From contig NZ_LMDU01000011.1 of the NCBI RefSeq assembly GCF_001425165.1, positions 558,058-622,057 on the forward strand: DNA of 64,000 nucleotides, given 5' to 3'. This document shows, in pieces, positions 8,166 through 50,730 of this stretch. The notes under the pieces are model-generated. The model was not told the origin of the DNA and made no database searches. It worked only from the letters and a program-made list of their open reading frames with translations. The stretch comes from Pelomonas sp. Root405. GTDB lineage: Bacteria; Pseudomonadota; Gammaproteobacteria; Burkholderiales; Burkholderiaceae_C. Both the position numbers and the translations under genes were made by a program. Position 1 is the first letter of the stretch. Every line of letters begins with the position of its first letter.

Positions 8166-8200
8166 GGTTTTTTGTCTCCGCCGCCGATGTTAGGTGTTGA

Positions 8201-8229
8201 GCAGGTGGCTCACGCATTGAGCCACCTGC
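8201..8229. repeat. Perfect 12-bp inverted repeat between the regulator gene and recA
   Basis: GCAGGTGGCTCA (8201-8212) and TGAGCCACCTGC (8218-8229) are exact reverse complements separated by CGCAT. No T-run follows on either strand, so it is not a typical intrinsic terminator. It lies 36 bp upstream of the response-regulator start and 60 bp upstream of the recA LexA box. It could be a protein-binding operator or a leader hairpin. Confidence 0.85.
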
Positions 8230-8288
8230 CGCCTAGCATGCTCATCAATCCTGACGCTGCGGGCTGCCGCAGATCGAGGGACAAACCA

Positions 8289-8317
8289 CTGTACAAACCT
8301 ACAGCTTGCCCCATAAT
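8289..8317 (+). promoter_or_regulatory. recA promoter with LexA (SOS) box
   Basis: CTGTACAAACCTACAG at 8289-8304 fits the proteobacterial LexA pattern CTGT-N8-ACAG exactly. CATAAT at 8312-8317 is a good -10, and CTGTAC at 8289-8294 sits 17 bp upstream as a weak -35, so the LexA box covers the -35. LexA would therefore block RNA polymerase directly. The recA start is 26 bp after the -10. Confidence 0.85.
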
Positions 8318-8342
8318 TCAGCCATTCCCTACGGAGATTCGC

Positions 8343-9380: not shown

Positions 9381-9399
9381 GGCTTCAGCGCCGACCGCC

Positions 9400-9915: not shown

Positions 9916-10088
9916 GGGCCGCTTGACCGAGCGCGCAGGGGTAGTTTTCACCCTCCGTGCTACATTGCCGCCTGCCCCAAAACGGCGGTTCACCCGGTTA
10001 CAAGCGCCTTGCCTCCACGGCAAACAGCGGTACGAGCCCGGCGAACACCGTCCCGGCATCGGCCGGTCGTTCTGCCCAATTCCCGTCC

Positions 10089-10720
10089 ATGCCTGCCGTC
10101 CACCCGTCCATCACGCGCCGCCTGCTGCACCGCCGCGCACTCGATGTGCAGGTGTTTGCACGCGATGACGGATTGTTCGATGTCGAAGCCGGCTTGGTTG
10201 ACACGAAGACGCATGACGTCCCTCTTGCCGGCGAAGCCCGCAAGGCCGGCGATCCCATCCACGAGATGCGCCTGCACCTGACTGTGGACGCCGGGCTGAC
10301 GATCACGGCCGCAAGCTCCGAGATGTTGTGGATGCCCTATCCCGGCAATTGCGACGAGCACGGCGGGGCCTACGCCCGCCTCGCCGGCCTGAACCTGATG
10401 AAGGGTTTCCGCCAGGCGGTCAACGAGCGCCTGGCTGGAACCCGCGGCTGTACTCATCTGACCGAGTTGTGCCAGGTACTGCCCACCGCCGTCATCCAGG
10501 CCATGGCCGGCTCCGTGATCGATACGCGCGAAGGTGACGCGGCCGGCAATCCGCCTTTCCAGCTCGACCGCTGCCACGCCCTGCGCCGCGATGGCGCAGC
10601 CGTCGCCAAGTTCTATCCGCGCTGGCACACCGATGCCGCCGAGCCGGCACCCGGTAGCTCCCCGGGACACCCGAGCCAGCCACAACCGATTCCTGACTTC
10701 CCGACCCGAGAGACCCAGCC

Positions 10721-10724
<4 letters not shown>
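10089..10724 (+). CDS. DUF2889 domain protein
   Basis: A 211-residue cytosolic protein of unknown function belonging to the DUF2889 family: it begins by matching [20 protein letters not shown] and continues with the conserved block [11 protein letters not shown] 10089 is chosen because the domain begins right after it; the frame is open further upstream. No signal peptide or membrane segment is present. The stop overlaps sucC by ATGA, so expression is probably coupled to succinyl-CoA synthetase, but this does not establish a role. The last 35 residues are Pro-rich and low in complexity. Confidence 0.85.
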
Positions 10725-11881
<1,157 letters not shown>

Positions 11882-25557: not shown

Positions 25558-26334
25558 ATGGCGCCCGTCCTCGCTCCACCAACTTTGCTGTCAGGCGTGA
25601 CCACTGCCTCCCCCGTCTTTGTCGAACCCCCGCCGCCCGCACCGGCTGCCGCCGCGGCCCAGCTGCGTCTGCCGCCGGCGCGTGGTGACGAGTTGGGCCC
25701 TCAGGGTCGCCGAGCGCTGATTGGCGGCGTAGTGGCCGCCCACCTGGTAGGCGGCTGGGCGCTGATGCAGATCGACGCTGTCCGCACGGCCGTCATCGAG
25801 GCCGCGCCGGTGCTGATGGTCGACATGATCGCGCCCGCAGAGGCCCCCAAGCCTGCGCCGCCGCCGCCCAGGCCCCAGCCCAGGTCGACCGCCCCGGCAC
25901 CCGCACCCCTCATTGCCGCCGCGCCCACCCCCTCGCCTGCGCCACCGGCCTTCGTCGTGCCGGCGCCCGAGCCGGTCCTGCCGCAGCCGGTCGTCGTCGC
26001 GCCCGCGCCGCCGGCACCGCCCGCGCCGGTCGCCCAGCCGCTGGCCCAGGTCATCAAGCAGGTGGCGCCCAGCGCGGTGCGCTACGTGAAGGAGCCGACG
26101 CTGGATTTCCCGCTGCTGGCCAAGCGCGCCCGCGAGCACGGCACCGTCGTGCTGCGCATCACCGTGGACGCCCACGGGCGGCTCAAGGAGGCCTGGGTGC
26201 ACAAGTCCTCGGGCTTCGAGCGCATCGACCAGGCGGCACTGAAGGACATCCGCACCGCCCGCTTCGTGCCGCAGATGGAAGACGGCCGGCCCGTCGAATG
26301 GCAAACCCTGGCCCCGCTGGCCTACGACCTTTGA
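25558..26334 (+). CDS. tonB: Energy transducer TonB
   Basis: Periplasm-spanning protein that carries proton-motive energy from ExbBD to outer-membrane receptors. It has 258 residues: an unusually long cytoplasmic N-terminus of about 50 residues rich in Pro/Ala, one membrane segment (about 52-70), a Pro/Ala-rich spacer (about 90-165) and the TonB C-terminal domain (from about 178, with AREHGTVVLRITVDAHG and SSGFERIDQAAL). First gene of the iron operon behind a Fur box. Confidence 0.94.
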   Translation: MAPVLAPPTLLSGVTTASPVFVEPPPPAPAAAAAQLRLPPARGDELGPQGRRALIGGVVAAHLVGGWALMQIDAVRTAVIEAAPVLMVDMIAPAEAPKPAPPPPRPQPRSTAPAPAPLIAAAPTPSPAPPAFVVPAPEPVLPQPVVVAPAPPAPPAPVAQPLAQVIKQVAPSAVRYVKEPTLDFPLLAKRAREHGTVVLRITVDAHGRLKEAWVHKSSGFERIDQAALKDIRTARFVPQMEDGRPVEWQTLAPLAYDL

Positions 26335-26353
26335 AACGCTAACCGAGTACCCC

Positions 26354-27112
26354 ATGGACGCCACCGCTTCCGTCATCGCCGCCACGCCGGCCCCTGGCTT
26401 CGGCCACTTCATCGCCCAGTCCGACGCCGTCGGCAAGTTCCTGCTCGGCGTGCTCGTCGTCATGTCCATCGCCTCCTGGGGCCTCATCGTCGCCAAGGGC
26501 GTGGCGCAGTTCCTGCGCAACAAGCGCGCGACGAGCTTCCTGGACTTCTTCTGGAACGCGCGTTCGCTGGACGCCGTGCAGGCCGAGCTCAACACCCACG
26601 GCGCCCACGACCCGTTCTCGCACCTCAGCGCGCACGCCATGCACGCCCAGGCCCACCATGCCCGTTACGGCTCGGCCAAGCTGGCCGAGGCCGGCACCGC
26701 CAACGACTTCATCACGCGCACCATCAAGAAGGTGCTCGACGAGGAAACCACGCGCCTCGAATCCGGCCTGACGACGCTGGCGACCATCGGCGCCACCGCG
26801 CCCTTCGTCGGTCTGTTCGGCACGGTCTGGGGCGTCTACCACGCGCTGCTGGCCATCGGCATGAGCGGCGCCGGCACGCTGGACAAGGTGGCCGGCCCGG
26901 TGGGCGAGGCGCTGATCATGACCGGCATCGGCCTGGCCGTGGCCATCCCCGCCGTCATGGCCTACAACGCCTTCACGCGCAGCAACCGCGTGCTGAGCGC
27001 GCGCCTCGACGCCTTCGCCTACGAGCTGCACAGCTTCCTGACGCTGGGCGAGGCGCCGGGCGCTGGCGCCACCGGCAACGTGCGCCCGCTGAAATCGACG
27101 GCCGCGGCCTGA
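26354..27112 (+). CDS. exbB: TonB-system proton channel subunit ExbB
   Basis: MotA/TolQ/ExbB-family inner-membrane protein of 252 residues with three membrane segments; family signature LATIGATAPFVGLFGTVWGV and the last segment GIGLAVAIPAVMAYNAF. With ExbD it forms the motor that energises TonB. It lies 19 bp after tonB and 19 bp before exbD. Confidence 0.96.
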   Translation: MDATASVIAATPAPGFGHFIAQSDAVGKFLLGVLVVMSIASWGLIVAKGVAQFLRNKRATSFLDFFWNARSLDAVQAELNTHGAHDPFSHLSAHAMHAQAHHARYGSAKLAEAGTANDFITRTIKKVLDEETTRLESGLTTLATIGATAPFVGLFGTVWGVYHALLAIGMSGAGTLDKVAGPVGEALIMTGIGLAVAIPAVMAYNAFTRSNRVLSARLDAFAYELHSFLTLGEAPGAGATGNVRPLKSTAAA

Positions 27113-27131
27113 ATCCGAAGGACTGCACGCC

Positions 27132-27551
27132 ATGGCCTTCGCCTCCTTCGACAGCAAGCGCGCCAGCGCCCCGATGGCCGAGATCAACATGGTCCCGCTC
27201 ATCGATGTGATGCTGGTGCTGCTGGTGATCTTCATCGTCACCGCGCCGCTGCTGACCAATGCCGTCAAGCTGGACCTGCCCAAGGTCAGCTCGCAGGTCA
27301 ACGAGCTCAAGCCCGACAAGATCGAGTTCGGCATCGACGCGGCCGGCCAGCGCTTCTGGAACGGCGAGCCGCTGACGCGCGCCGAAGCCGTGACGCGATT
27401 CAAGGCCGAGGGTCTCAAGCCACAGCAGCCCGAGATCCACCTGCGCGCCGACCAGAACGTCGCCTACCGCGCCGTCGCCGAGACCCTGGCCGATGCCAGC
27501 AAGGCCGGCCTGACGCGGGTCGGCTTCGTCAGCGAGCCCGAGCGCCCCTGA
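27132..27551 (+). CDS. exbD: TonB-system proton channel subunit ExbD
   Basis: A 139-residue protein with one N-terminal membrane segment carrying the essential proton-translocating Asp, D25 (MVPLIDVMLVLLVIF), and a periplasmic domain. Third gene of the operon. The TonB-dependent receptor follows after 112 bp, in which no terminator was seen. Confidence 0.96.
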   Translation: MAFASFDSKRASAPMAEINMVPLIDVMLVLLVIFIVTAPLLTNAVKLDLPKVSSQVNELKPDKIEFGIDAAGQRFWNGEPLTRAEAVTRFKAEGLKPQQPEIHLRADQNVAYRAVAETLADASKAGLTRVGFVSEPERP

Positions 27552-27663
27552 GCGCCGTCGCCGCAGCAGTTTTCCGTTTCTTTCGCCAACAAGACGGCCA
27601 AGCCATCGCCAGGCCGCAAGGGCAGCGCCATGTCGCCGTCCACCCACAGAGGAGTTACTTCAA

Positions 27664-29937
27664 ATGTCCGCCAAGCCTTCCCGCCGCCGCCGTCCGGCGC
27701 TGAATCTCCTGCCGATGCTGCCACTTGGCGCCCTGGCCGCCGGCTTCGGCCTGGCCTCGGCCGCGCTGGCTCAGGCGCCTGCGGCCCCCGCCGCCAAGCC
27801 GGCCGCTGAAGAAGCAGCCCTGCCCACCGTGCGCGTCAAGGCCGCCGCCGAGCCGCAGGGCAAGGACGCCTACCAGGCCACCGAAACCCGCATCGGCAAG
27901 GGTAGGCAGGACATCCGCGACATTCCGCAGTCGCTGACCGTCGTGACGGAAAAGCTCATCGACGACCGCAACCTCGACAACGTCAAGGAAGTGCTGAAGA
28001 ACACCGCCGGCATTACCTTCATGGCGGCCGAGGGCGGCGAGGAAGACATCCGCATCCACGGCATCTCGCTGCAGAGCACCGGTGACATCTTCATCGACGG
28101 CATGCGCGACCCGGCCTTCTACGAACGCGACACCTTCTTCCTCGACCGGGTCGAGCTGCTGCGCGGCTCCGGCGCGCTGATGTTCGGCCGCGGCTCCAGC
28201 GGCGGCGCGGTCAACCAGGTGACCAAGCAGGCCGTGCTGGCCGACCAGAACGAGATCGCCATCACCGCGTCCAGCCACGCCGGCCTGCGCGGCGTCGGCG
28301 ACTTCAACCGCCGCACCGGCGAGACGACGGCCTGGCGCATCAGCACCATGGTCGACCGCGCCGACAACGACGGCGCCGGCAACATGATCAACAAGGCCGG
28401 CCTGGCCGGCTCGGTGCGCACCGGCATTGGCGAGACCGATGAGTTCGGACTGACGCTGTATGCGCTCAAGAACGAGAACGGCATGAACTACGGCATGCCG
28501 TGGATCCGCCCGACGCTGACCTCGCCGGTGGCCGACACGACGCTGGTGCCCGTCGACCCGACCGCGTACTACGGCATGGCCAGTGATCGCAACAAGGGCT
28601 CGGCGCAATACGTCATGGGCCAGCACATCCACCGCTTCAGCCCCGACATCGAGCTGACAACGAAGGCCCGCTACGCGTCCTACACGCGCGACCAGCGCGC
28701 CGGTACCGTGCGCTTTGCCGGTGCGGCGCTGCAGCCCGGCGGTCTGGCCGTGTCGCTGGCCACCTTCGGCCCCAACACGGTCATCAACCGCGGCACCCAC
28801 CTCAAGGTGCAGGACATGCAAACGGTCACCGTCCAAAGCGACCTGCAGGCCCGGCTGAAGGCCGCCGGCATGGACCACAACATCACGACCGGTGTCGACT
28901 TCTCGCAAGAGAAGAAGCAGGTCTATGCCGCCTACTCCGCCAACCAGGGGGGCATCGTGCCGCCCAAGCCCACCACGACGGCGGGCCGGCCCAATGACGG
29001 CGCATGGATCGACGAAGGCCTGCGCAGCTTCCGCACCAACAACGAATACGTGTCCAAGGGCTATGGCGCCTACCTGCAGGACCTGATCCAGGTTGCGCCG
29101 ATGTGGAAGGTGCTGGCCGGCCTGCGCTACGACAAGCTCGACGGCGACTACAAGGTCTACACCCTGCCGAACAACGCGCCGTCGCCGACGACGACCCAGC
29201 CCTATGCGATGAACATCTCGGAGTGGAGCCAGCGCGCCGCCGTGCTGTTCCAGCCGAGCGAGCGTCTGTCGTTCCACCTGATGGCCGCCACGTCCTTCAA
29301 CACCTCGGGCGACACCTATTCGCTGAGCGCCGCCAACGAGAACATCCCGCCCGAAAAGTCGGTCAACGTCGAGCTCGGCGGCCAGTACGACTCGGCCGAC
29401 GGCAAGCTGACGACGCGCTTCGGCATCTTCCGCGCCACCAAGCTTCACGAGCGCAACACCGACCCGCTGGTCAACCTGGTCACCCTGTCCGGCAAGCGCC
29501 ACGCCGCGGGCGTCGATGTCGACATCACCGGCCGCATCACGCCCGAATGGGAAATCTTCGGCAGCTTCACCTGGATGCCAGTGGCCAAGATCGACATCGG
29601 TGCGCCCGGTGCGGAGGGCCAGGGCACCCGCCCGTCGCTGACGCCGCGCTATTCCGGCAGCCTGTGGACGACCTACAAGCTGAACCCGCAATGGCGCGTC
29701 GGCGGCGGCTTTGTCGCGCGCAGCGGCCAGCAGCCCAACCGCAACCCGGGCTTCTACGCGCCCAAGTTCATCGTCGGCAACCTGATGGCCGAGTACACCG
29801 TCATCGAAGACGCGCTGCTGTTCCGCCTCAATGTCGACAATGTGGCCAACAAGCTGTACGCGGACACGCTCTACTCCGGCCACTACCTGCCGGGCACGGG
29901 CCGCATCGTCGCGCTGACGGGCACCTACAAGTTCTGA
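27664..29937 (+). CDS. TonB-dependent siderophore receptor, Fiu-like
   Basis: Outer-membrane receptor of 757 residues. A signal peptide ends near residue 36 (ALAQA). The TonB box is probably in LPTVRVKAA (about 52-60). The plug domain contains DIPQSLTVV, IRIHGISLQSTGDIFIDGMRD and GSSGGAVNQVTK; the C-terminus ends NKLYADTLYSGHYLPGTGRIVALTGTYKF-style with a terminal Phe. Overall resemblance is to catecholate receptors of the Fiu type, and the adjacent PKHD hydroxylase supports this, as fiu and ybiX are linked in other proteobacteria. The exact siderophore is unknown. Confidence 0.9.
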   Translation: MSAKPSRRRRPALNLLPMLPLGALAAGFGLASAALAQAPAAPAAKPAAEEAALPTVRVKAAAEPQGKDAYQATETRIGKGRQDIRDIPQSLTVVTEKLIDDRNLDNVKEVLKNTAGITFMAAEGGEEDIRIHGISLQSTGDIFIDGMRDPAFYERDTFFLDRVELLRGSGALMFGRGSSGGAVNQVTKQAVLADQNEIAITASSHAGLRGVGDFNRRTGETTAWRISTMVDRADNDGAGNMINKAGLAGSVRTGIGETDEFGLTLYALKNENGMNYGMPWIRPTLTSPVADTTLVPVDPTAYYGMASDRNKGSAQYVMGQHIHRFSPDIELTTKARYASYTRDQRAGTVRFAGAALQPGGLAVSLATFGPNTVINRGTHLKVQDMQTVTVQSDLQARLKAAGMDHNITTGVDFSQEKKQVYAAYSANQGGIVPPKPTTTAGRPNDGAWIDEGLRSFRTNNEYVSKGYGAYLQDLIQVAPMWKVLAGLRYDKLDGDYKVYTLPNNAPSPTTTQPYAMNISEWSQRAAVLFQPSERLSFHLMAATSFNTSGDTYSLSAANENIPPEKSVNVELGGQYDSADGKLTTRFGIFRATKLHERNTDPLVNLVTLSGKRHAAGVDVDITGRITPEWEIFGSFTWMPVAKIDIGAPGAEGQGTRPSLTPRYSGSLWTTYKLNPQWRVGGGFVARSGQQPNRNPGFYAPKFIVGNLMAEYTVIEDALLFRLNVDNVANKLYADTLYSGHYLPGTGRIVALTGTYKF

Positions 29938-29969
29938 GCCTTTGACCCGATGACCGACCGCGCCACGCC

Positions 29970-30662
29970 ATGCTGCTGAAGATCCCCCAGATCCTCGACA
30001 CGGCCGGCGTGGCCCGGGCCCGTGAACTGCTGGCCGCGGCCCCCTGGGCCGATGGTCGCTCGACCGCCGGCCGCCAGGCTGCGCAGGTCAAGAACAACGA
30101 ACAGCTGCAATCCGGCAGCCCCCAGCACCGCGATCTGCAGGCGCTGGTGCTGCAGGCGCTGGAGAAGCACCCGCTGTTCTTCTCGGCCACGCTCCCGAAA
30201 CGTGTGCTGCCGCCGCTGTTCAACCGCTACGCCGGTGAGGCCAACGCCTACGGCAGCCATGTGGACCAGGCGGTGCGATACCTGCCGGGTGCAGGTTCGG
30301 GCCCGCAACGCGTGCGCACCGACATCTCCTGCACGCTGTTCCTCAGCGACCCGGCCGACTACGACGGCGGCGAACTCGTCATCGAGCACAGCTTTGGCGA
30401 GCAGCGCGTCAAGCTGGCGGCGGGCGACCTGATCGTCTACCCCGGCAACAGCGTGCACCGGGTCGAGCCGGTCACGCGCGGCGAGCGCCTGGCCAGCTTT
30501 TTCTGGATCGAGAGCATGGTGCGTGCCGAGGAGCAGCGCCGCCTGCTCTACGAGATGGACATGAGCCTGATGAAGCTGCGCGGCGACCTCGGCGAGACGC
30601 CCGAGCTGGTGCGGCTGACCGGCGCGTATCACAACCTCTTGCGAATGTGGGCCGATACGTGA
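29970..30662 (+). CDS. PKHD-type Fe(II)/2-oxoglutarate hydroxylase, PiuC/YbiX-like
   Basis: Dioxygenase of 230 residues. The iron triad is H97-x-D99 (GSHVDQ) and H163 (GNSVHRVEP), with an Arg at 170 or 173 for 2-oxoglutarate. Members sit beside Fiu/PiuA receptors and are linked to siderophore or siderophore-antibiotic uptake; the substrate is unknown. It begins 32 bp after the receptor and its stop overlaps the next gene by GTGA, so it belongs to the iron transcript. Confidence 0.92.
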
Positions 30663-31792
30663 CCGCGCCGCGCATCGAGTCGCTGCCGGACGGCGTCGTC
30701 AATCTGGCCGACTTCGAAGCGCCAGCGCGTGCGCGCCTGGACGAGGCGGCGTGGGCCTATCTCAACGGCGGCGCGGCCGACGAGCTCACGCTACGCACCA
30801 ACCGCGCGGCCTGGGACGCGATCCGGCTGCAGCCTCGCGTGCTGCGCGACCTGGCCGGCGGCCACACGGGCGTGACCCTGCTCGGCCGTGAGCTGCAGCA
30901 CCCGGTGCTGCTCGCGCCCATCGCCTACCAGCGGCTCTTCCATGCCGACGGCGAGCTGGCCATCGCCCACGCGGCGGCCGCGCAGGGCGCCGGTCTCATC
31001 CTCAGCGCGCAGGCGAGCGTGCCGTTGGAAGAGATCGCCGCGCCGATGCGGGCCGACCCGGCCGCCGGTCCGCTGTGGTTCCAGCTCTACTGGCGCGACG
31101 ACCGCGACTTCATGCGCGCGCTCTTGCGGCGCATCGAGGCCGCCGGCTACCAGGCCCTGGTGCTGACGGTCGATGCGCCGGTGCATGGCGCGCGCGACCG
31201 CGAACGCCGCAGCGGCTTCAAGCTGCCGGACCACATTCGCGCGGTCAACCTCGGCGGCCTGAAGAAGCCGCTCGACCTGCAGCCCGGCCAGAGCGCCCTC
31301 TTCGACGGCCTGATGCCGCGCGCCGCCACCTGGCGTGAGGTCGACTGGCTGCGCGCCGAGAGCCGCCTGCCGCTGCTGCTCAAGGGCCTGGCCCATGCCG
31401 ACGACGCACGCGAGGCCCTGGCCCGCGGTGTCGACGGCTTCATCGTCTCCAACCACGGCGGCCGCACGCTGGACACGCTGCCCGCGACCGCCGAGCTGCT
31501 GCCGCCGCTGCGCGCCGCGCTCGGGCCCGACGTGCCGCTGCTCGTCGACGGCGGCATCCGCCGCGGCACCGACGTGCTCAAGGCCATCGCGCTGGGCGCC
31601 AACGCCGTGCTGCTCGGCCGCCCCTATGTGCATGCGCTGGCCGCCAGCGGCGCGCTCGGCGTCGCCCATGCGCTGCGCCTGCTGCGCGACGAGCTCGAGA
31701 TCGCGATGGCGCTCTCAGGCTGCAAAACCCTCGCCGACGCCGGCCCGGCATTGCTCTGGCCCGCCCGTTCTCCTGAAAGGACCTCGACATGA
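30659..31792 (+). CDS. FMN-dependent alpha-hydroxy-acid oxidase/dehydrogenase
   Basis: A 377-residue TIM-barrel flavoenzyme related to lactate, glycolate and mandelate oxidising enzymes. Visible parts: [30 protein letters not shown], the catalytic-histidine motif SNHGGRTLD (H266) and the phosphate loop [21 protein letters not shown] 30659 overlaps the hydroxylase stop (GTGA); another GTG at 30647 is possible. No membrane-targeting insert is seen, so it is probably a soluble oxidase-type enzyme. Why it is in an iron-uptake unit is unclear. Confidence 0.88.
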
Positions 31793-40126: not shown

Positions 40127-40281
40127 GCCCTGCATGACGATGCATTCGACGATGAACTTCCGAGCCGAGTCGCCGGCACAGCAGGCCGCCGGCCGGGGCT
40201 GTGCCGACGAGTCGACTTGCGTCCTACGCCGGCCGATACATCTCTGAAAGACAATCCGGGCTTCTTCATCGGAGCCCGCTT

Positions 40282-41532
40282 GTGAAAGAAGAGCTGCGCA
40301 AACGCCGGTCCTGGCTGGATGGCTTCATGGCCTACCCAGCGCCGCCCGGCCTGAGTGAGACCGCACTGCGCGACAACATCATCCGGCTCGACCAGGCGCT
40401 GTACGCGCTGTGGGCCCTGGGTGACAACCTCATCTACGGCTGGACACCCGAGCCGCGCGGCCTTCGCGTGCTGGTCGCGCCACACCCCATGCTGACCGAG
40501 TTTGCACTGGGGGATGGCTCGCTGTCGTCCGACGAGCTGACACGGCGCGCGCGCCTGCTGGACAAGCTGCTGTCCAACCAGGAACACCTCGACAAGCAGG
40601 CCTTCGACGCTGTCGCGGCGGCGCTTGGCATCACGCCCCGTCTCATCGAGCTGCCTTTCGCGCCCGAGCGCGGCCTGGGCCTGCCGCTGATCGCGGCCAT
40701 TGCGGCGCGCTACGGCATCCGCCTGGTCGAGGACCGCGCCGTCATCCTTTTCGACGCCGTCGGCTTCTCGCTGCTGACGCCGCTGCAGCAGGTGGTGCAG
40801 CTCAACAGCCTGTCCTGCTCGGTCAATGCGGCCTATGCCAAGCTGCTGGACCGCGAGATCAACATCAACTTCGCGCGCACGACGACGGGCGACGGCTTCT
40901 ACATCTGGAACCGCATGCGCGGCATCGAGGCCAATGTGGAGCTGTATCAGCTGATGCAGTTCATCCTGGCCGACAACGCACTGGCGCAGGAGCGCGCGAC
41001 GCGCCCCGAATCGGTGCCCCGGCTGCGGGCCTGCTTCCATGTCGGCTCGCACTACGAGTTCTATCAATCCGAAGGGCTGAACCCGACTTCGTTCAGCTAT
41101 TTGGTCGGCCAGGTCACCATCGAGCTGGCCCGCATGATCGAGCGCGCGGAGCCGGGCCAAATCCTGGTCGGCAAGTTCAACACCCTCATGCATGACGAGG
41201 CCACCGGCGAGGACGTGCGCATCGACAGCCTCGACTTCGTCGAGCGCACGCGTGCGCCGCTGCGCAGCCTCAATGGCTTGAAGCTCGCCGGCTCCGAGGT
41301 CGACGAGATCGCCTGCTACCTGACCGGCCGCCGCGACGCGGCCGGCCTGTGGGGCATCAGCGAATACCACATGGCCGACAAGCACGGCCTGATCCACCGC
41401 GTCTACAACGCCAAGATCAACATCCATCGCCGCAATGGCGAGCCCATCTACCTCGGCCTGCGCGAGGAAGACCTGCCCACGGACTCGCTGCGCACCGTGG
41501 CTGACACCGACTTCACGCCGATGCAAGGCTAG
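40282..41532 (+). CDS. Divergent class III nucleotide-cyclase-like protein
   Basis: A 416-residue soluble protein from GTG 40282. Residues about 150-300 resemble a class III cyclase catalytic core: VILFDAVGFSLLTPLQQ with D158 and TTGDGFYIWN with D204 fit the two metal-binding aspartates, and the repeat-like HVGSHYEFY follows. The N-terminal 150 residues match nothing that I recognise. The usual substrate-specifying Lys/Asp pair could not be placed, so it may be inactive or regulatory. It lies just before a gene with a canonical cyclase domain. Upstream in-frame sequence to 40201 is probably not translated. Confidence 0.65.
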   Translation: MKEELRKRRSWLDGFMAYPAPPGLSETALRDNIIRLDQALYALWALGDNLIYGWTPEPRGLRVLVAPHPMLTEFALGDGSLSSDELTRRARLLDKLLSNQEHLDKQAFDAVAAALGITPRLIELPFAPERGLGLPLIAAIAARYGIRLVEDRAVILFDAVGFSLLTPLQQVVQLNSLSCSVNAAYAKLLDREININFARTTTGDGFYIWNRMRGIEANVELYQLMQFILADNALAQERATRPESVPRLRACFHVGSHYEFYQSEGLNPTSFSYLVGQVTIELARMIERAEPGQILVGKFNTLMHDEATGEDVRIDSLDFVERTRAPLRSLNGLKLAGSEVDEIACYLTGRRDAAGLWGISEYHMADKHGLIHRVYNAKINIHRRNGEPIYLGLREEDLPTDSLRTVADTDFTPMQG

Positions 41533-41618: not shown

Positions 41619-44594
41619 GTGACCGAGTCCTTCGCCTTCACTGTCGCCAGTCCCAACGCCGCTGGCCAGCGCCGGCTGCTGACGCTGCTGTTCGTCGACC
41701 TGAGCGGCTCCACCGCGATGGCCGAGTGGATGGAGGCCGAGCACTATGCAGCCATGCTGGCCGGGTTGCGCGAGCTGTACGAGCGCATCGTGCCGCACCA
41801 CGGCGGCGTCATCGCGCGCATCCAGGGCGACGGCATGCTGGCCGTCTTCGGCCACCCGGAAGTGCGAGAGGACGACGGCCGCCGCGCCACCGAGGCCGCG
41901 CTGGAGCTGCACGCCGCCGTGCGCGGCCTGCTGCCACCCGGCCCCCGGCCGGCAGGCTTCCCCGGCCTGTCGCTGCACAGCGGCATCCATGCCGGCGTCG
42001 TCCTCGTCAACGACGGCGACCAGATGCGCGGGCGCTTCGAACTGCTCGGCAACGCGCCCAATATCGCCGCTCGCCTGTCGGAGGCAGCCAAGCGCGACGA
42101 GATCATCGCCAGCGAAGAGAGCCTGGGCCTGCAGAGCCAGTTCTTCGAGACCGGCCCGCGCTTCTCGCTGCAGCTGCGCGGCCGCGCCACGCCACTGGCG
42201 GCCTACCGCGTGTTCGGCCGCGCACCCGTGGGGCGGCGCTTCGAGGCCAGCGTGCGTCGCGGCCTGGCGCCCTTCGTCGGCCGCGGTGACGAGCTCGCCG
42301 CGCTCGAAGTCGCGCTGGCGCGCACGCTGTCCGGACAGACGCTGTGGCTGGGCTTGCGCGCCGGCGCGGGCGTGGGCAAGACCCGGCTCACCGAGGAGTT
42401 CCTGCGCCGCGCGGCGGACCAGGCCTGCCAGATCCACCGTGGCTATTGCGAGAGTTATCTCAGCGCCGAGCCGCTGCAGCCCTTCGTGCAGATGCTGCGC
42501 GCGCTTGATGGCCTGCACGACGCGCCGCCCGAGCTTTTCGCGGCACAGAGCAGTGCATCGGCCCAGCGTGCCGATGCGCTGCTGGCCCTGCTGCTGGCAC
42601 TGGCGCGGCGCACACCGCAGGTCGTGTGCATCGACGACCTGCAATGGGCCGACGATGCCTCGCTGCGCCTGCTGCACCGGCTGCGCGCCGTGGCCGAGCG
42701 CGAAGGCCTGCCGCTGCTGCTGCTGAGCGCCAGCCGACCGGCGTCACACCCCGCGGCGTTGCCCGGTGCCAACGACGGCGATGCCGACATCCTCGAACTG
42801 CCGCCGCTGACCGAGACCGAGGCCGCGCGCGCCGTGCAGCAACTGCTGCCACAGACCGACCCCTTCATCGCCTCCGAGGTGCAGCGCCACGCCGGCGGCA
42901 ACCCGCTCTTCATCGAGGAGCTTTGCCACGCCGCGGCCGACAACGGCGGCGGCCTGGTCGAAGGCCAGAGCAGCGCTGCCTGGCTGGCCGCCCTGGTGGA
43001 GTCACGCGTCGGCCGCCTGCCGCCCGAGCAGGCACAGCTGGTGCGCGTGGCCGCCGTCATCGGCAATGTCATTCCCGTGTGGTTGTTGCAGGCACTGTCC
43101 GGCTGCGGCGAACAACATCCCGCCGTGCGGGCACTGGCCGCGCAGGATTTCATCTTCCCGGACCAGCGTCCCGGATTGCTGCGCTTCAAGCACGGGATCA
43201 CGCGGGACGTCGTCTACGAGGCGACCGGCCTGCACGAACGCCAGGCGCTGCACCGCCAGATCAGCGCCGAGCTGAGCGCGCGCGGCGGGGCCGAAGACCA
43301 GCTCCACGAGCAGTTGGCCTATCACGACGCCGCCGCCAACGACTGGCCGGCTGCCGCCCGTCACGCCGAGGCCGCGGGCGACCACGCGCTGGCCGCGTCG
43401 GCGCTGGACCGCGCCAAGAAGCAGTTCCGCGCCGCGCTGGCCGCGCTGGAGTTCCTGCCCGATGGCGACGACCAGGGCCGCGAACGGCGGCGCCGCTGGG
43501 TCGGCATTGCGCAGCGCCTGGGCATGGCCTGCGTGTTCGACGCGTCGCAGGACGACCTGCGCGTGCTGCGGCATGCCGCCGGCCTGGCGCGCGAGGACGG
43601 TGACCCCGGCCTGATCGCCCGCACCGAGTACTGGCTGTCCTATGTCGGCTATGCGCTGGGCGAGACGCGCGACAGCCTGCGCCACGCGCGCGCCGCCGTC
43701 GAGACCGCCCAGGAATGCGGCGACCACGCGCTGCTGGCCCAGCTGCCCGGCACCGTCGGCCAGCTGCAGGCCGCCGCGGCCGACTACGCCAACGCGCTGC
43801 CGATGCTGGACCTGGCCATCGCCCGCCAGCGCGCCCGCGCCAGCAAGAGCGCGGCCAACCGGATCGGCCTGTCCTATTCGCTGTGCTGCCGCGCCTATGT
43901 GCTGGGCGACCAGGGACAGTTCGAGCAGGCCCACCAGGTGTTCGCCGAGGCGTTGGAGCCCTTCGAGGGCAGCGGCCACGCAGTGGAGGCCAGCATCCAG
44001 GGCTGGCGCGCGGCCGTGCTGCTCTGGCAGGGCCGCTGGGCCGAGGCGCGCGAGGCGGCTGCGGTGGCCCACCGCGTGGGCGCCCAGGTGCGCAGCATGT
44101 TCACCTGCGCCATGGGCCACGCCGCCGGTGCCTATGGCGCTTGGATGCAGGATGCCGACCCGGCTGCCCGCCAGCATGTGCTGGACGCCACGGCCTGGCT
44201 GGCCCCGCGCGGCGGCGGCCTGTACAGCAGCTTCAATCACGGCTGGCTGGCCGACATCCTGTCCACCCAGGGTGATGCCGGCGCGGCCCGCCACCATGTC
44301 GCGCTGGCGCTCAGGCGTGGCCGCCAGCACGACTGGATCGGCGTGGCGATGGCCTACCGCGCCGCGGCCCGCCTGGCCGCACGTGTGGGCGACAACCCTC
44401 GTGCCAAACGCTATCTCGACCTGGCGCGCGGCGCGGGTGAGCAACGCAACTCGGCCCACGAGGCAGCGGTCACCGCGCTGCTGCAGGCCGAACTGCGGCT
44501 GGACGGTGCCTGGCAGGCCGCGCGTGACCGCGCCGGTCGAGAGTTCGAGCGTCTGGGCATGACGGGTTTCCTGGAGCGAGCGCTGCAGCTTTGA
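41619..44594 (+). CDS. Adenylate/guanylate cyclase-AAA ATPase-TPR regulatory protein
   Basis: A 991-residue protein starting at GTG 41619. Residues about 15-200 are a class III cyclase domain with metal Asp D27 (LFVDLSGST) and D71 (IQGDGMLAVFG). Next is an AAA_16-type ATPase with Walker A GAGVGKT (249-255) and Walker B VVCIDDLQWAD; the C-terminal 450 residues are TPR-like helical repeats. The build matches large signalling ATPases with an N-terminal cyclase module, not a membrane receptor. Nucleotide specificity is uncertain. It is co-directional with the cyclase-like gene 86 bp upstream. Confidence 0.88.
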   Translation: MTESFAFTVASPNAAGQRRLLTLLFVDLSGSTAMAEWMEAEHYAAMLAGLRELYERIVPHHGGVIARIQGDGMLAVFGHPEVREDDGRRATEAALELHAAVRGLLPPGPRPAGFPGLSLHSGIHAGVVLVNDGDQMRGRFELLGNAPNIAARLSEAAKRDEIIASEESLGLQSQFFETGPRFSLQLRGRATPLAAYRVFGRAPVGRRFEASVRRGLAPFVGRGDELAALEVALARTLSGQTLWLGLRAGAGVGKTRLTEEFLRRAADQACQIHRGYCESYLSAEPLQPFVQMLRALDGLHDAPPELFAAQSSASAQRADALLALLLALARRTPQVVCIDDLQWADDASLRLLHRLRAVAEREGLPLLLLSASRPASHPAALPGANDGDADILELPPLTETEAARAVQQLLPQTDPFIASEVQRHAGGNPLFIEELCHAAADNGGGLVEGQSSAAWLAALVESRVGRLPPEQAQLVRVAAVIGNVIPVWLLQALSGCGEQHPAVRALAAQDFIFPDQRPGLLRFKHGITRDVVYEATGLHERQALHRQISAELSARGGAEDQLHEQLAYHDAAANDWPAAARHAEAAGDHALAASALDRAKKQFRAALAALEFLPDGDDQGRERRRRWVGIAQRLGMACVFDASQDDLRVLRHAAGLAREDGDPGLIARTEYWLSYVGYALGETRDSLRHARAAVETAQECGDHALLAQLPGTVGQLQAAAADYANALPMLDLAIARQRARASKSAANRIGLSYSLCCRAYVLGDQGQFEQAHQVFAEALEPFEGSGHAVEASIQGWRAAVLLWQGRWAEAREAAAVAHRVGAQVRSMFTCAMGHAAGAYGAWMQDADPAARQHVLDATAWLAPRGGGLYSSFNHGWLADILSTQGDAGAARHHVALALRRGRQHDWIGVAMAYRAAARLAARVGDNPRAKRYLDLARGAGEQRNSAHEAAVTALLQAELRLDGAWQAARDRAGREFERLGMTGFLERALQL

Positions 44595-44883: not shown

Positions 44884-46335
44884 ATGACGACGATCAAGAA
44901 GATGACACCGCCGCCGCTGCCGGTTCTGCGGTCCGCGGGCGCTGCCGTGTCACTGCTGCTGGCCGCCTCGGTCGCGCAGGCCGTGGACTGGCCCTCGGGC
45001 TACTCCAAGTGCGCCGACGAAGGCGAGACCTGCAAGGCCGGCACCGCGACTCGGCCGGTGTCTTTCGGCATCAAGGACAAGTGGGTCATCAAGAACCTCA
45101 GCGGCGACATCGCCTGCACGGTGGCGACCTTCGGCTCTGACCCCAACCCCGGCATCACGAAGAAATGTGCGGTCGGCCCCGTCGGCAGCCCTGCTCCCTC
45201 ACCCGCGCCCTCTCCGGCGCCTTCACCTGCGCCAACACCTGCCCCCGCCCCCACACCTGCACCGACGCCAGCGCCCTCGCCGGCCCCTTCCCCTGCTCCC
45301 TCACCTGCGCCCGCCCCGGCCGGCCACAGCGGCGGCTATGCCGGCACGGTCACTGGCGGCGGCAGCAAGACGCCCGTGACCGTCAGCACCGCCGCGGCGA
45401 TGCAGGCAGCGCTCAACGCCTATGACGGCAACTCCGGACTGGTGCTGCGCTACACGGGCACGTTCAACTTCGCGTCCATCACCGACTCCTGCGCGCAATG
45501 GCAAAAGCCTGCGGGCGCCATCGTCGAGATCAAGAACAAGAACAACGTCACCATCGAAGGCGCCAACGGCTCAGGCGCCAATTTCGGCCTGGCCATCAAG
45601 GCAGCGGCGCAGAACATCATCATCCGCAACATGACCATCGGCCTGCTGCCCGGCAGCATCGACGCCATCGGCATCGAAGGCCAGAGCGGCGGCACGCCGG
45701 GCTACATCTGGATCGACCACAACACGCTCTTCAGCAGCCTCAAGGAGTGCAGCGGCGCGGGCGACCTGGAGTTCGACGGTCTCATCGACAGCAAGGCCGG
45801 CGCCCACCACATCACCTACTCGTACAACTACATCCACGACCACCAGAAGGTCGGCCTGATCGGTTCCAGCGACAGCGACAGAAGCGACCGCTTCATCACC
45901 TTCCACCACAACTACTACAAAGACGTCAGCGCCCGCCTGCCGCTGCAGCGCGGCGGCTACACGCACCTGTACAACAACCTCTACAGCGGGGTGAAGACCT
46001 CGGGCGCCAACATCCGCATGGGCGGCTACTCGCTGATCGAAAACAACTGGTTCGAGAACGCCCAGAACCCGGTGACGTCGCGTGACAGCTCGTCCATCGG
46101 CTACTGGCAGCTGCGCGGCAACAACGTGCAAAGTCCGGCGGACTTCGGGACCTACGGCATCACCTGGGTGCCCAGCGGCTCGTCGCCGTCGCGGGATGCG
46201 ACGGACTGGACCACCACGGCGAACTTCCCGCTCGGCATTCCCTACGGCTACACGCTGCAGGCGCCGTCGTGCGTGAAGCAGAGGCTGCCGGCGGCGGCGG
46301 GGGCGGGAACGAACTACGCGAAGGTCAGTTGCTGA
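44884..46335 (+). CDS. Secreted pectate lyase, polysaccharide lyase family 1
   Basis: Cleaves polygalacturonate by beta-elimination outside the cell. The 483-residue protein has a signal peptide (cut near VAQAVD, about residue 34), an N-terminal module of about 65 residues with paired cysteines (YSKCADEGETC), a Pro/Ala/Ser/Thr linker of PAPSPAP repeats (about 100-142), and a right-handed beta-helix with PL1 landmarks WIDHNT, FDGLIDSKAGAHHIT and SARLPLQRGG in the position of the usual RxPxxR. The linker is typical of multi-module plant-polymer enzymes. It suggests a plant- or detritus-associated life. Confidence 0.9.
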   Translation: MTTIKKMTPPPLPVLRSAGAAVSLLLAASVAQAVDWPSGYSKCADEGETCKAGTATRPVSFGIKDKWVIKNLSGDIACTVATFGSDPNPGITKKCAVGPVGSPAPSPAPSPAPSPAPTPAPAPTPAPTPAPSPAPSPAPSPAPAPAGHSGGYAGTVTGGGSKTPVTVSTAAAMQAALNAYDGNSGLVLRYTGTFNFASITDSCAQWQKPAGAIVEIKNKNNVTIEGANGSGANFGLAIKAAAQNIIIRNMTIGLLPGSIDAIGIEGQSGGTPGYIWIDHNTLFSSLKECSGAGDLEFDGLIDSKAGAHHITYSYNYIHDHQKVGLIGSSDSDRSDRFITFHHNYYKDVSARLPLQRGGYTHLYNNLYSGVKTSGANIRMGGYSLIENNWFENAQNPVTSRDSSSIGYWQLRGNNVQSPADFGTYGITWVPSGSSPSRDATDWTTTANFPLGIPYGYTLQAPSCVKQRLPAAAGAGTNYAKVSC

Positions 46336-46351
46336 CGCGGCAGGACCCCCA

Positions 46352-46398
46352 ACCTTGAGAAGGCAGTCGCGCAGCTCGTGCGTGACTGCCTTCAAGGT
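46352..46398. repeat. Long imperfect inverted repeat between the pectate lyase and vapB
   Basis: ACCTTGA-GA-AGGCAGTC (46352-46368) pairs with GACTGCCTTCAAGGT (46384-46398): 15 paired bases with a 2-base bulge and a 15-base loop. No T-run follows. It could end pectate lyase transcription or mark an insertion junction. Confidence 0.6.
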
Positions 46399-46418
46399 GC
46401 GCGACCCGGCGCTAGTAT

Positions 46419-46444
46419 GTGTACCTCTCCTTGAAGAAGTACGC
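46419..46444 (+). promoter_or_regulatory. Candidate vapB promoter and operator
   Basis: TAGTAT (46413-46418) resembles a -10 box. Directly after it, GTGTAC (46419-46424) and GTACGC (46439-46444) form a one-mismatch inverted repeat spaced by 14 bases that ends 3 bp before the vapB start and covers its GAAGAAG ribosome site. Autoregulation by VapB binding to such repeats is usual for the family; the site here is inferred. Confidence 0.4.
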
Positions 46445-46447
46445 ATC

Positions 46448-46642
46448 ATGCGCACCAACATTGAGATCGACGACAAGCTCATGAAGGACGCGCTGAAAGC
46501 CACCGGCGCAAAGACCAAGCGCGAGGTCGTAGAACTGGGCCTGAAGACGCTGGTTCAGCTTCGGGCACAGGAAAAGGCCCGCGACCTGAAGGGCCGGATC
46601 ACCTGGGAGGGTGATCTGGACGCACTGCGGCAAAACAGGTGA
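46448..46642 (+). CDS. vapB: Type II antitoxin, VapB family
   Basis: A 64-residue ribbon-helix-helix antitoxin: MRTNIEIDDKLMKDALKATG followed by KTKREVVELGLKTLV, then the toxin-binding tail. It looks intact and normally sized. ATG 46448 follows GAAGAAG. It overlaps the vapC remnant by 4 bases (GTGA). Since vapC is broken, this may be an orphan antitoxin, perhaps still neutralising a related toxin encoded elsewhere. Confidence 0.9.
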   Translation: MRTNIEIDDKLMKDALKATGAKTKREVVELGLKTLVQLRAQEKARDLKGRITWEGDLDALRQNR

Positions 46643-46907
46643 TCCTCGTCGACTCCAGCGTCTGGATCGACTACTTCCGTGCTTTGGATACGCCGGCCAC
46701 ATCGACCTCGCGGGTTATGAGTTGGCGGTGAAGGCAGCGGACAACTTCCGCCGGCTGCGCGCCATGGGCGTCAGGGTGCGCAAGACCATCGACACCCTGA
46801 TCGCCACCCGATGCATCGAGGACAGGCTGACGCTGCTGCATGCCGACAAAGACTTTGAGCCATTTGCCGAACATCTGGGGTTGAAAGTGGCGTATTCGCA
46901 AAGCTGA
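46639..46907 (+). pseudogene. vapC: vapC PIN-domain toxin remnant with internal deletion and frameshift
   Basis: From GTG 46639 the frame reads VILVDSSVWIDYFRALDTPAT, the standard start of VapC with its first catalytic Asp, and then stops at about 46731. The C-terminal part appears in another frame: GYELAVKAADNFRRLRAMG to ADKDFEPFAEHLGLKV, ending at 46907. About 45 residues expected between them, including the conserved Glu of the active site, are missing, and the two parts are out of frame. The gene cannot make a working toxin. Confidence 0.88.
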
Positions 46908-46984: not shown

Positions 46985-49900
46985 TCACACCCCCATCGCC
47001 ACCACCGTCGGCGCCCCGGTAAACCTCAACACCCCCGCATCCAGCACCGCCGCCACGACACCCAGCATGACACCCATCCCCATGCCATAGCCCGAGCACG
47101 CATGCGGCGGCGGGCCTTCCGGGTCGGCGCGGTCGCCGCCGAAGGCGACGTGGTGGCGCAGCGGGTCTTGCTGGGTGGCCGAACCCAGGCCGACGATGAC
47201 GACGCGATCGGCCTCCACATTCACCTGCCCCAGCCGATGCGCCACGCGCGCCTTGCGCCAGACCTGGAAGGGCGTGGGGCGCTGGTTCAGCGTGGCGACC
47301 AGCGTCGGCCTCAGACGCGCCACGGCCTCGGCGTAGGGAGGCGGAGCCGTCTGCGTATCCGGGTGCACCTCGTTCCACTGCGGCTGCAGATCCCAGAGCT
47401 TTCGGGTCTGCACCCAGGCGGCCAGCACGGTCACGAGGTTGGCATGCGTCGTCGGTGGGAAGCCCAGCATGATGCCGGCCAGCGTGCGCGCGGGCAGGTC
47501 GGGCGTGGCGTCGGGCAGGGCCTTGGCAGCCGCGACGATCTTCTGCGCCAGCGGCGGCAGCTGGGCGGCCGGGTCGGCCAGCCAGGCTTCGACGGCGGCG
47601 GTGAAGCGGCGGCCGGCGGCGCGCCCTTCGGCTTGGACATCCTTGGTCGGGAAGGGGCCGAAGACGTGGCGCGACACCTTGATGAGGTCGCGCGGGCAGC
47701 GCGGCGCCACGCTGCCGACGGCAGGCGCGCCCGCATAGGGCTCGGCGTGGAACTCCGTGCCCCAGATGTGGCGGCCATCGGGCTGGCCGAACCACATGCG
47801 GCACAGCGCGGCCAGCACGCCTTCGCTGAGGCGCTCGAAGTCCAGCGGCGTGTCCGTGGGCAGGTCCTTGGGTTTCTGTGACGCCGGGAAGGCGTCCAGC
47901 AGCGCACGGGCCTCGTCCTTCAGCTTGTTCAGTCCCGCCTTGGCGACCTGGTAGGCCACGCCATAGCAATACGCCTCGCTGTAGCCCTCGATGGCCGCAT
48001 TGATGACCGGCGCCAGCTCGCTGTGCCCGGTGTCGTCGTCCTGGCCCAGGTAGCCGACACCGATGGAGTCGTGCATGCGCTCGCCGTAGCCGCTGACGGA
48101 GTAGCGGTCGGGGTCGTTGCGCAGCACCTCGCAGACACGCTCGGGCGTGCCGACGAGCACGCCATACGCCGTGTCCACCACCCCGCCGGGCTGGGTGCGC
48201 ACCCAGGCCCACGCACCGTCGCGCGTCGTGCTGTCCTCCAGCCAGAGCTGCATGGCGACCTTGTCCTGCAGGTCGGGAACGCGCTCGGGCACGGCGACCG
48301 CGGGCGGCAGCGGCAGGGGCAGCTCGACCAGGCCGGGCAGTCCCTGCAACGCCGCAATGGAGGGCACGAAGAAATAAGCGCCCCATTGCAGCGTGACGAA
48401 GGGCTCGGGACCGAGGTCGATTTCGTAGGTCTTGCCACCATGCTCGAAAGGAAAGAGCCGCGGGCCGGCATTGCCGTCGACCACCGCGAGCAGCGGATCG
48501 GCCTGGCCCGAATAGCCGCCGCTGGCATTGCCGCCGGCGACCCAGCGCTGCACGACCTCGAACTGCTCGGCCAGGTGGGCGTTGTAGGCCATGAAGACCA
48601 GGCCGCGGTCCGCATCGTCGGGCGCGTCGGGGTTCACGGGCGCGCCATAGCTCATGCCGCGTCGCAGGATGCGCGGCATGCGATTCCTGGCGAAGGCCGA
48701 GTCGTCCTCGAGGTCGCGCGGATTGACGCGGCGAATGTGCGAATGGAAGGGACAGGCCGAGCCCGCCGCGTCCTTGGCGTAGTTGAAATCGTTCGTCGTG
48801 CCCGGCGCCTCGGGGGCAACGAGCGGGCGGCCGTCTCGGTAGCGGCCCATCAGCTTGGCCAGCACCAGGTCATGGTCCAGGCCGTGCTCCTTGGCCTGCT
48901 CATAGGTGCGCTTGGCGAAGCGGCCGGTGTACTGGCGCAGCTTGCGCACGACGAGGAAGGTGCCGCGGTCCAGCAGCGCGTCGGGCTTCTCGGGCACGGC
49001 GTGGCCCTTGTCGCGTTCGGTCGGGAAGCCCTGCAGGATCTCGCCGGTCTTGACCGTGTCGCCCCAGGCCGCGCCCGGCGTGGCCGGTGCCAGCGTGGGC
49101 TGGCTGATGCCGTCCTTGAAGCCGAAGTGTTCCTTGTCGGCCGCATTGCTGCGCATGGGCTCGGTGGCCATCAGCGCCAGGCCGGTGTTGACGGTGAGCG
49201 CCTCGGCCAGGGCGTCGAGGCGCTGGCCGTCTGCGGCCGTGAAGTGCTCGCCCGGCTCAGCGGCCGGGAAACGCAACTGCACCAGCACATGAGCGTTGGC
49301 GGGGTCGAAGCGGTCGATGCCGTTGACGTGGCGCACCAGGGCCCAGTGTGTCGGGTGGTTGTGGCGCACATCGCCGAGCAGGCCGGCGCGCGCGGCCATG
49401 CCTTCCTTGAAAGCCTGCGGGAAGCGGTCCAGCCGCGCGGCGGGTACGCCCAGCGCCTTCAGGCCGGCCAGCGTCAGGGCGACCTGGCGACATACGCCTG
49501 GCTGGGTCGGGTCGTCGACGACCTTGTCATCCTCGCGGTTGACGGGCGCCGTGCTGAGCCAGGCCACGGCTTGCGCCGGCTGGGCCACGCGCAGCAGCAC
49601 CAGGCCGCCGCGGTTGCCGGGCGGCTTGGTCAGGATGCAGGCCTGCAGGTCGCCGGGCTTGAGCGACAGCTCGCGAGCCTTGACCTCGGGCTCGACGAGC
49701 GGACGCTCGAACCATTCCAGCATTTCGTGGTGGCGCTGGCGCAGCTGGCCGCCAGGGGTCTTGCCGCCGTCGTTGGGGAAATGCTGGGCGGTGCCGAGCT
49801 CTTTGAGCTCGAACAGCACGTCACGCGTGGCGCGGCGCAGGCAGTCGCGGTCGGGGGCCTCGTCGCCAAAATAGCGCTGCAGCGTGAAGAGCCCAGCAAG

Positions 49901-50533
49901 CGGCACCAGGCCGCGCGCGGCCATCGCGAAGCGCTCCTTGTCGCCGGTGGGCAGCGGCGGCACGTCGCCCGAGGCCGGGGCGCGCAGGCGGTTGAACGCC
50001 AGCTCGCTGGCGCGGCCGCGCTGGGCGGCCTCCAGCAGGGCGAGATATTCGGCATCGCTGACCGTGCGGCCGGATTCGATGAACAGGAAGTCCGCCGACA
50101 CCTCATGCTCACGCACCCAGCGCGCATAGGTCTCGAAGCTGCAGTCGCGCGACAGCGTGTAGCCCTCGGTGTGGCAGAGCATCAGGTCCAGCGTGCTGCC
50201 GAGCTGGTCCCAGATGACGCGCATGTAGGGCTCCCAGCCGCCGTCGAAATTGACGGACAGCAGCAGCCGGTCGGGCGCGTCATCCTTGCCTTCGACGATG
50301 CTCCAGCGGAAGGAATGGACGATGCGCCAGCGCGCGACGATGTCGGTGTAAGGCGACGCCGGCGTGCTCGATTCGCGCGAGCCCAGGCGCAGCCCGTTGA
50401 GCGTGCGCAGCACCTTGCGCAGCCGCTCCACATAGGTGATGACCTCCAGCGCGTCGACGAAGCCGCGCTTGATGTCGACCAGCAGATTGAGGTCGGTGAT
50501 GCCGCCGAGCTGGACGTCGTTGCCGCGTGCCAT
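46985..50533 (-). CDS. DyP-type peroxidase fused to a cytochrome P450 (three-part protein)
   Basis: A 1,182-residue soluble protein with no signal peptide. Residues about 1-190: an unassigned domain, perhaps ferredoxin-like (LLSVNFDGGWEPYM). Residues about 290-745: a DyP haem peroxidase with GFKDG (D474), probable proximal His H599 (CPFHSHIRRVNPR) and distal Arg in RILRRGMSYG (624-625). Residues about 780-1182: a cytochrome P450 with haem-thiolate C1146 (HACSGYG). In the P450 part, the I-helix region reads GFPPTTHAN, without the usual acid before Thr, and EAVARLRP has Ala where the ExxR Glu is expected. The start has a strong AGGGAGA ribosome site. No ferredoxin or reductase gene is near, fitting a peroxide-driven P450. 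Function unknown. Confidence 0.88.
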   Translation of the reverse strand: MARGNDVQLGGITDLNLLVDIKRGFVDALEVITYVERLRKVLRTLNGLRLGSRESSTPASPYTDIVARWRIVHSFRWSIVEGKDDAPDRLLLSVNFDGGWEPYMRVIWDQLGSTLDLMLCHTEGYTLSRDCSFETYARWVREHEVSADFLFIESGRTVSDAEYLALLEAAQRGRASELAFNRLRAPASGDVPPLPTGDKERFAMAARGLVPLAGLFTLQRYFGDEAPDRDCLRRATRDVLFELKELGTAQHFPNDGGKTPGGQLRQRHHEMLEWFERPLVEPEVKARELSLKPGDLQACILTKPPGNRGGLVLLRVAQPAQAVAWLSTAPVNREDDKVVDDPTQPGVCRQVALTLAGLKALGVPAARLDRFPQAFKEGMAARAGLLGDVRHNHPTHWALVRHVNGIDRFDPANAHVLVQLRFPAAEPGEHFTAADGQRLDALAEALTVNTGLALMATEPMRSNAADKEHFGFKDGISQPTLAPATPGAAWGDTVKTGEILQGFPTERDKGHAVPEKPDALLDRGTFLVVRKLRQYTGRFAKRTYEQAKEHGLDHDLVLAKLMGRYRDGRPLVAPEAPGTTNDFNYAKDAAGSACPFHSHIRRVNPRDLEDDSAFARNRMPRILRRGMSYGAPVNPDAPDDADRGLVFMAYNAHLAEQFEVVQRWVAGGNASGGYSGQADPLLAVVDGNAGPRLFPFEHGGKTYEIDLGPEPFVTLQWGAYFFVPSIAALQGLPGLVELPLPLPPAVAVPERVPDLQDKVAMQLWLEDSTTRDGAWAWVRTQPGGVVDTAYGVLVGTPERVCEVLRNDPDRYSVSGYGERMHDSIGVGYLGQDDDTGHSELAPVINAAIEGYSEAYCYGVAYQVAKAGLNKLKDEARALLDAFPASQKPKDLPTDTPLDFERLSEGVLAALCRMWFGQPDGRHIWGTEFHAEPYAGAPAVGSVAPRCPRDLIKVSRHVFGPFPTKDVQAEGRAAGRRFTAAVEAWLADPAAQLPPLAQKIVAAAKALPDATPDLPARTLAGIMLGFPPTTHANLVTVLAAWVQTRKLWDLQPQWNEVHPDTQTAPPPYAEAVARLRPTLVATLNQRPTPFQVWRKARVAHRLGQVNVEADRVVIVGLGSATQQDPLRHHVAFGGDRADPEGPPPHACSGYGMGMGVMLGVVAAVLDAGVLRFTGAPTVVAMGV

Positions 50534-50730
50534 GTTTGTTCTCCCTTGTGCAGGGAGAAGTATCCCGGCGCCGCATGAAGGCGTCGCTAGGGCGGCCCCT
50601 TAAGTCTGACGACGGTCCTGCTGATCCGCGCCAGCCGCAATTCATCCGCGGAAAGCCGCAACCTATCGCAAACCCTTAGGCCGTGGACCGTGCCGCGAAC
50701 ACACTGGCGGCACAGACAGAGGAACACACC

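Follow-up and report, generated by a model that had tools for sequence, protein, structure and literature searches.

A DyP peroxidase–P450-fold fusion protein of Pelomonas and its relatives, repeatedly associated with lipase-type proteins and nucleotide-cyclase genes

A three-part fusion gene in Pelomonas and related bacteria

We analysed a 64,000-nucleotide stretch of the genome of the soil and water bacterium Pelomonas sp. Root405 (contig NZ_LMDU01000011.1, positions 558,058 to 622,057; hereafter the window), focusing on a gene that joins a front domain, a DyP-type peroxidase and a P450-fold domain in a single frame encoding 1,182 residues (46985..50533). The gene and its parts lie on the minus strand, and a Shine-Dalgarno-like AAGGGAG is found just upstream (50541..50547). 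The front domain (residues about 9-155, 50069..50509) is alpha+beta-barrel-like, and relatives of it also exist as standalone genes adjoining a DyP gene. It is followed by a helical stretch that matches no family (residues about 198-276, 49706..49942), the class V DyP domain (residues about 291-735, 48329..49663) and the P450-fold domain (residues about 753-1182, 46988..48277). The protein is probably soluble, because inspection by eye revealed neither a signal peptide nor a membrane stretch.

A scan of genome contigs retrieved 42 other loci containing the P450 part, or 43 including the window. All three parts were in one frame in 38 of the 42, while the remaining four (L037, L049, L075 and L076) were broken by a contig end. 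This conserved frame bears out the original prediction of a DyP-P450 fusion and rules out a read-level error joining two genes. Among the named hosts were Pelomonas, Roseateles, Paucibacter, Variovorax, Xenophilus and Rubrivivax, together with metagenome-assembled genomes. No free-standing P450 part was found in the 40 loci whose DNA extends upstream of it. A front-domain profile matched 3 out of 399 genomes of the order, including that of Root405, indicating that the gene is rare elsewhere. Genome G059 gave a weak front-domain match. On the Sphingopyxis plasmid pDB-1 (L034, 7980-10409), a DyP-P450 relative without the front part lies directly after a Tn3 transposase gene.

Conserved catalytic residues in the DyP domain

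Active-site residues were compared in an alignment of 44 sequences, namely the 42 loci, the window and one Sphingopyxis plasmid copy. The GFKDG motif with the distal Asp474 (49109..49123), SHIRRVNPR with the proximal His599 (48716..48742) and RRGMSYG with the distal Arg624 (48644..48664) each retain their catalytic residue in 42 out of 42 covering sequences. The combination of GxxDG with a distal Asp, a proximal His and a distal Arg is that of class V DyPs. The curated profile PF20628 recognised the domain (score 25.1, cut-off 20), and the scores for PF21105 (14.6, cut-off 27.5) and TIGR01413 (95.1, cut-off 100.5) fell below threshold. The domain shares its sequence family with the class V enzymes DrDyP of D. 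radiodurans (8re2/8re3), DyP2 (4g2c) and Alr1585 (5c2i). These solved enzymes are products of single genes, 442-493 residues long and without a P450, unlike the fused domain of the window. The catalytic residues of these enzymes are likewise shared with the domain (PMC10820274).

A P450-fold domain with an altered active site

Structure prediction gave a P450 fold for the C-terminal domain, as originally proposed. The haem-thiolate Cys1146, in HACSG (47090..47104), was present in all 44 aligned sequences, and 43 of them contain HAC[PS]G, in agreement with the HxCxG Cys-ligand motif of the superfamily. With the ligand residues of both domains conserved, the claim that the protein has residues for two haem sites stands, and we infer that both domains bind haem, making it a two-haem enzyme.

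Other hallmarks of P450s are altered. The K-helix ExxR was absent from its aligned place in all 44 sequences; it is lost just upstream of a WR that is kept (RPTPFQVWR, 47255..47281; Arg1093 in 44/44, Trp1092 in 43/44), and an E..R elsewhere, up to 34 residues away, occurs in 4 of the 44. The acid-alcohol pair of monooxygenases is likewise missing from the I helix, where GFPPT (47450..47464) has Pro at the usual acid position; GFxPT was found in 40 out of 44 sequences, and one of the other four does not cover the site. Among 59 ordinary P450 control frames from related genomes (drawn from 62 loci, chosen for a Cys motif plus E..R, and including overlapping or doubled entries), 53 had a motif of the acid-alcohol type and none had GFxPT. 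The Pfam search suggested with the original prediction was successful for the DyP half and not for the other, since PF00067 had no match in the window protein up to E 1; relatives with other arrangements do match it, with L108 below the cut-off. Rare P450s without ExxR exist, and we use the term P450-fold domain because this motif is lacking. The domain provides material for testing the role of ExxR.

CYP152 peroxygenases are driven by H2O2; in their I helix, Arg-Pro-Thr replaces the acid-alcohol pair, and ExxR is kept. From this general description, the window domain resembles them in its Pro-Thr, but it has Pro-Pro-Thr instead of Arg before Pro, and no ExxR. The original prediction also held that no redox partner is nearby, and none was present among the nine neighbouring genes scanned. 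Given this, the missing acid and ExxR and the tie to a peroxidase, the P450-fold domain most likely uses peroxides, and an electron-transfer partner would be unnecessary.

A nucleotide-cyclase gene accompanies the fusion

The plus strand of the window encodes a 991-residue protein (41619..44594) composed of a class III nucleotide cyclase, an AAA ATPase and a TPR region, the last with a TPR_12 match (27.5 bits) below the cut-off of 30.1. In 38 of the 43 loci, such a gene lies no more than 7 kb from the fusion, convergent with it in 37 and co-directional in L076. The spacing was at most 500 bp in 27 loci, and the 3' ends overlapped in nine. The gene was not found in the covered DNA of L041, L042, L051 (1.2 kb downstream covered), L052 and L056. 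In the genome of L042 (G017), its ortholog shares the contig with the fusion at a distance of 80 kb; in those of L041 (G014) and L051 (G005), it is on a different contig. Among 60 genomes, including that of Root405, orthologs (E < 1e-150) were detected in exactly the 22 fusion carriers, as pieces at contig ends in three of them (G001, G010 and G013); none was found in the other 38, where the best match was 5.2e-33. The Sphingopyxis copy also has a convergent cyclase-AAA-TPR neighbour, and a divergent cyclase-AAA gene lies 1.1 kb from the P450-less relative in L188.

Asp27 and Asp71 of the cyclase, which we take to be the two metal-binding aspartates, are present in all 36 covering sequences (out of 39). 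Positions 67 and 141, presumably the adenine-selecting Lys/Asp sites, are mostly Arg (29/36) and Glu (33/36) instead. The domain make-up is shared with other bacterial class III cyclase-AAA-TPR proteins, for which no published link to a DyP or a P450 appeared among the matches listed.

Association with lipase-type proteins

A patatin gene lies 20 bp upstream of the fusion in L069/L070 (one strain) and in L072, where it scores above the Pfam cut-off. A patatin that passes its cut-off follows the DyP gene in L191, and L189 has one close to matches for the DyP and the front domain. The fusions of L068, L073 and L085 carry an SGNH-like C-terminal domain, with Ser and His motifs recognised by eye, and in L064 a beta-lactamase-type hydrolase gene is located upstream of the fusion. 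The longer fusions with the extra SGNH/GDSL-like domain span 6481-11235 (L068), 6586-11247 (L073) and 392-5152 (L085). Lipase-type proteins and nucleotide-cyclase/TPR genes are recurrent associates of the fusion and its relatives.

Reversed fusions and separate genes

The same parts also occur in other ARRANGEMENTS. In L098, a frame of 1,535 aa starts with the P450 (PF00067, 37.6 bits; cut-off 22.8) and ends with the DyP; between them come a stretch that looks membrane-like by eye and then the front domain. Three plasmids, from Pararhizobium, Novosphingobium and Sulfitobacter, also have the P450-first order; the Novosphingobium P450 scores below its Pfam cut-off and is accompanied by a front domain recognisable as a motif only. 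In the reversed-type set of 19 loci (the three named alphaproteobacterial plasmids and 16 other genomes of the phylum), the P450 has GFxPT and keeps ExxR in 18, the nineteenth (L123) being represented by a frame without the P450 part. A TPR gene precedes the reversed fusion on the same strand in 18 out of 19 loci, with a gap between open frames of up to 137 bp. Sixteen of these TPR genes resemble the cyclase of L098 and L107, the two on which Pfam was run, while those of L108 and L109 have a different front, annotated as SARP in L108.

Separate genes were observed as well. In L190, neighbouring genes on one strand encode the front domain, a second small protein, the DyP and the P450; in L191 (3817-9213), a P450 gene with a front-domain-like tail (by eye), a DyP gene and a patatin gene overlap. 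In L095 (5231-8592) and L096 (5232-8337), a catalase-family gene (similar-looking in L096), a front-domain gene and a DyP gene are consecutive, and a RoxA-like cytochrome c gene lies near the DyP gene of L097 (4385-5779).

We considered whether the P450s of both fusion orders form one special family. They share GFxPT, and profile–profile comparisons gave E values of 1e-13 and 1e-15, obtained without a control profile. The free-standing P450 of L190 matched the reversed-type profile with E 1.2e-83 and the window-type profile with E 1.1e-12, in a very small search set. However, the best control scored 28.0 bits against 24.7 for the best reversed-type P450 (medians 0.5 and 15.3, respectively), which gives no proof. 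Two results speak against one family: in a single-sequence search with the L190 P450, controls (best 49.4 bits) outscored window-type domains (best 12.1), and its I helix reads GAIPT rather than GFxPT. The idea is, therefore, weakened.

Other genes in the window

Next to the cyclase gene, the plus strand encodes a 443-aa protein without a Pfam match (40201..41532), found in 20 out of 43 loci; by eye, it contains a stretch resembling a degenerate, possibly second, cyclase domain. The segment between the fusion and the cyclase gene (44884-46907) encodes a pectate lyase that contains a long linker of Pro, Ser and Ala and is also present in L035-L038, and a VapB antitoxin followed by a small frame without a Pfam match, a pair for which clustering gave no counterpart in any other locus. 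At 25558-31792 we recognised by eye genes of the TonB/ExbB/ExbD type, a large gene resembling a receptor gene, and PiuC-like and lactate-oxidase-like genes.

Proposed function and alternatives

The lipase links point to lipid-derived substrates and the cyclase link to signalling. Our preferred reading, held tentatively and at somewhat short of even confidence, is that of a peroxide-driven two-haem enzyme acting on a lipase-released lipid. The lipase would release a hydrophobic, probably fatty-acid-derived, substrate. With peroxide as the oxidant and no electron-transfer partner required, the DyP haem could carry out one-electron oxidation or control the peroxide, and the substrate of the DyP could also be converted by the P450 haem, in the manner of a peroxygenase or of a hydroperoxide isomerase. 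The oxidised product, or the redox state of the enzyme, might then be sensed by the cyclase-ATPase-TPR protein.

Several observations weigh against this reading. ExxR is kept in the P450s of the reversed fusions, so its loss is not general, and L110 and L188 carry front-domain or DyP parts without a P450, which is therefore not always needed. In L052 and L056, the 9 kb around the fusion contain no cyclase gene. Fusion carriers represent 3 of 41 genera, and the counts of 18/19 and 22/22 come from kindred genomes and are not independent events. Regarding the lipases, the L069 patatin is just below its Pfam cut-off, the SGNH scores are below theirs in all three loci (L068, L073 and L085), and among the part of the neighbours scanned, most window-type loci yielded no adjacent lipase gene. 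Moreover, a search of the open-licence literature for DyP with fatty acids and hydroperoxides found no paper.

An unlikely alternative is that the DyP merely protects a peroxide-sensitive P450 by removing H2O2 or organic peroxides, without a common substrate. Peroxide removal is the classic role of peroxidases, and the catalytic residues of the DyP are conserved; this explanation, however, accounts neither for the lipase links, nor for a P450 that lacks the customary motifs for O2 activation, nor for the separate barrel domain retained with the DyP. Less probable still, the fusion could be mainly a sensor, its haem domains turning over little substrate but detecting peroxide or oxidised lipid and relaying their state to the cyclase. 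The cyclase/TPR association in two arrangements and the loss of ExxR and of the acid would suit such a role, but DyP catalytic residues kept in 42/42 sequences go beyond the needs of sensing, and no direct fusion to a cyclase was seen among the loci examined.

It seems rather improbable that the DyP is a fatty-acid dioxygenase whose hydroperoxide is isomerised by the P450, exactly as in fungal Ppo/DOX-CYP enzymes. We know of no DyP that acts as a dioxygenase, and of no precedent for one producing a hydroperoxide. The order of peroxidase then P450 does match the fungal families, and the reverse order is also known on both sides (for the non-bacterial fusions, PMC5919972). A degenerate, haem-free P450 scaffold would fit the missing ExxR and Pfam p450 match, but it is very improbable with Cys1146 and Arg1093 both retained in 44/44 sequences.

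Comparison with known fusions and significance

Fungal dioxygenase-P450 fusions (Ppo/LDS/AOS/EAS; CYP6001-6005) have two haems in one chain and an HxCxG Cys pocket (PMC13049297). Their DOX-CYP order, a cyclooxygenase-like (COX-like) peroxidase-type domain followed by the P450, is described in PMC5919972, which also reports oomycete CYP5619 fusions with the P450 first and a haem peroxidase second. The window protein shares with the fungal enzymes a probable two-haem chain, the peroxidase-type domain before the P450 and HxCxG. It differs in its DyP instead of a COX-like dioxygenase, which places it outside the fungal family, and in the missing ExxR, the barrel-like front domain and the bacterial hosts. 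CYP5619 has the order of the bacterial reversed-type relatives, opposite to that of the window protein, with another peroxidase family and in another kingdom. Judged by their sequences, bacterial proteins repeat both known fusion orders, using a DyP. Topical searches of an open-licence library, which includes few subscription papers and no bioRxiv preprints, found no paper on a DyP-P450 fusion among the matches listed, so the expectation that no published family has this architecture held.

The original interpretation is supported in part. Its analogy with Ppo is strengthened by the lipase partners and by the absence of the usual motifs for O2 activation from the P450 domain; the channelling that it proposed between the two haem centres is a hypothesis. 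If the proposed function holds, the bacterial fusions would work like the fungal and oomycete ones, yet outside those families. A further-reaching possibility, which we regard as doubtful, is bacterial lipid-mediator signalling, in which a patatin or SGNH lipase would release a lipid, a DyP-P450 would use peroxide alone to oxidise it to an oxylipin-like signal, and the paired cyclase-ATPase-TPR protein would convert this signal into a second messenger. If true, parts unrelated to the cyclooxygenase or dioxygenase-P450 pathways of animals and fungi would be arranged alike, with both orders re-evolved in bacteria.

The original prediction did not include the cyclase partner, the lipase links, the fusions of reversed order or the versions with separate genes. 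Fused or paired peroxidase-P450 systems are known in fungi, oomycetes and animals, and several make lipid signals. The bacterial pairing of a DyP with an altered P450-fold domain, in several arrangements and often beside lipases or cyclases, would point to repeated evolution of the same principle, and the fusion may be a natural two-haem catalyst that is peroxide-driven and partner-free.
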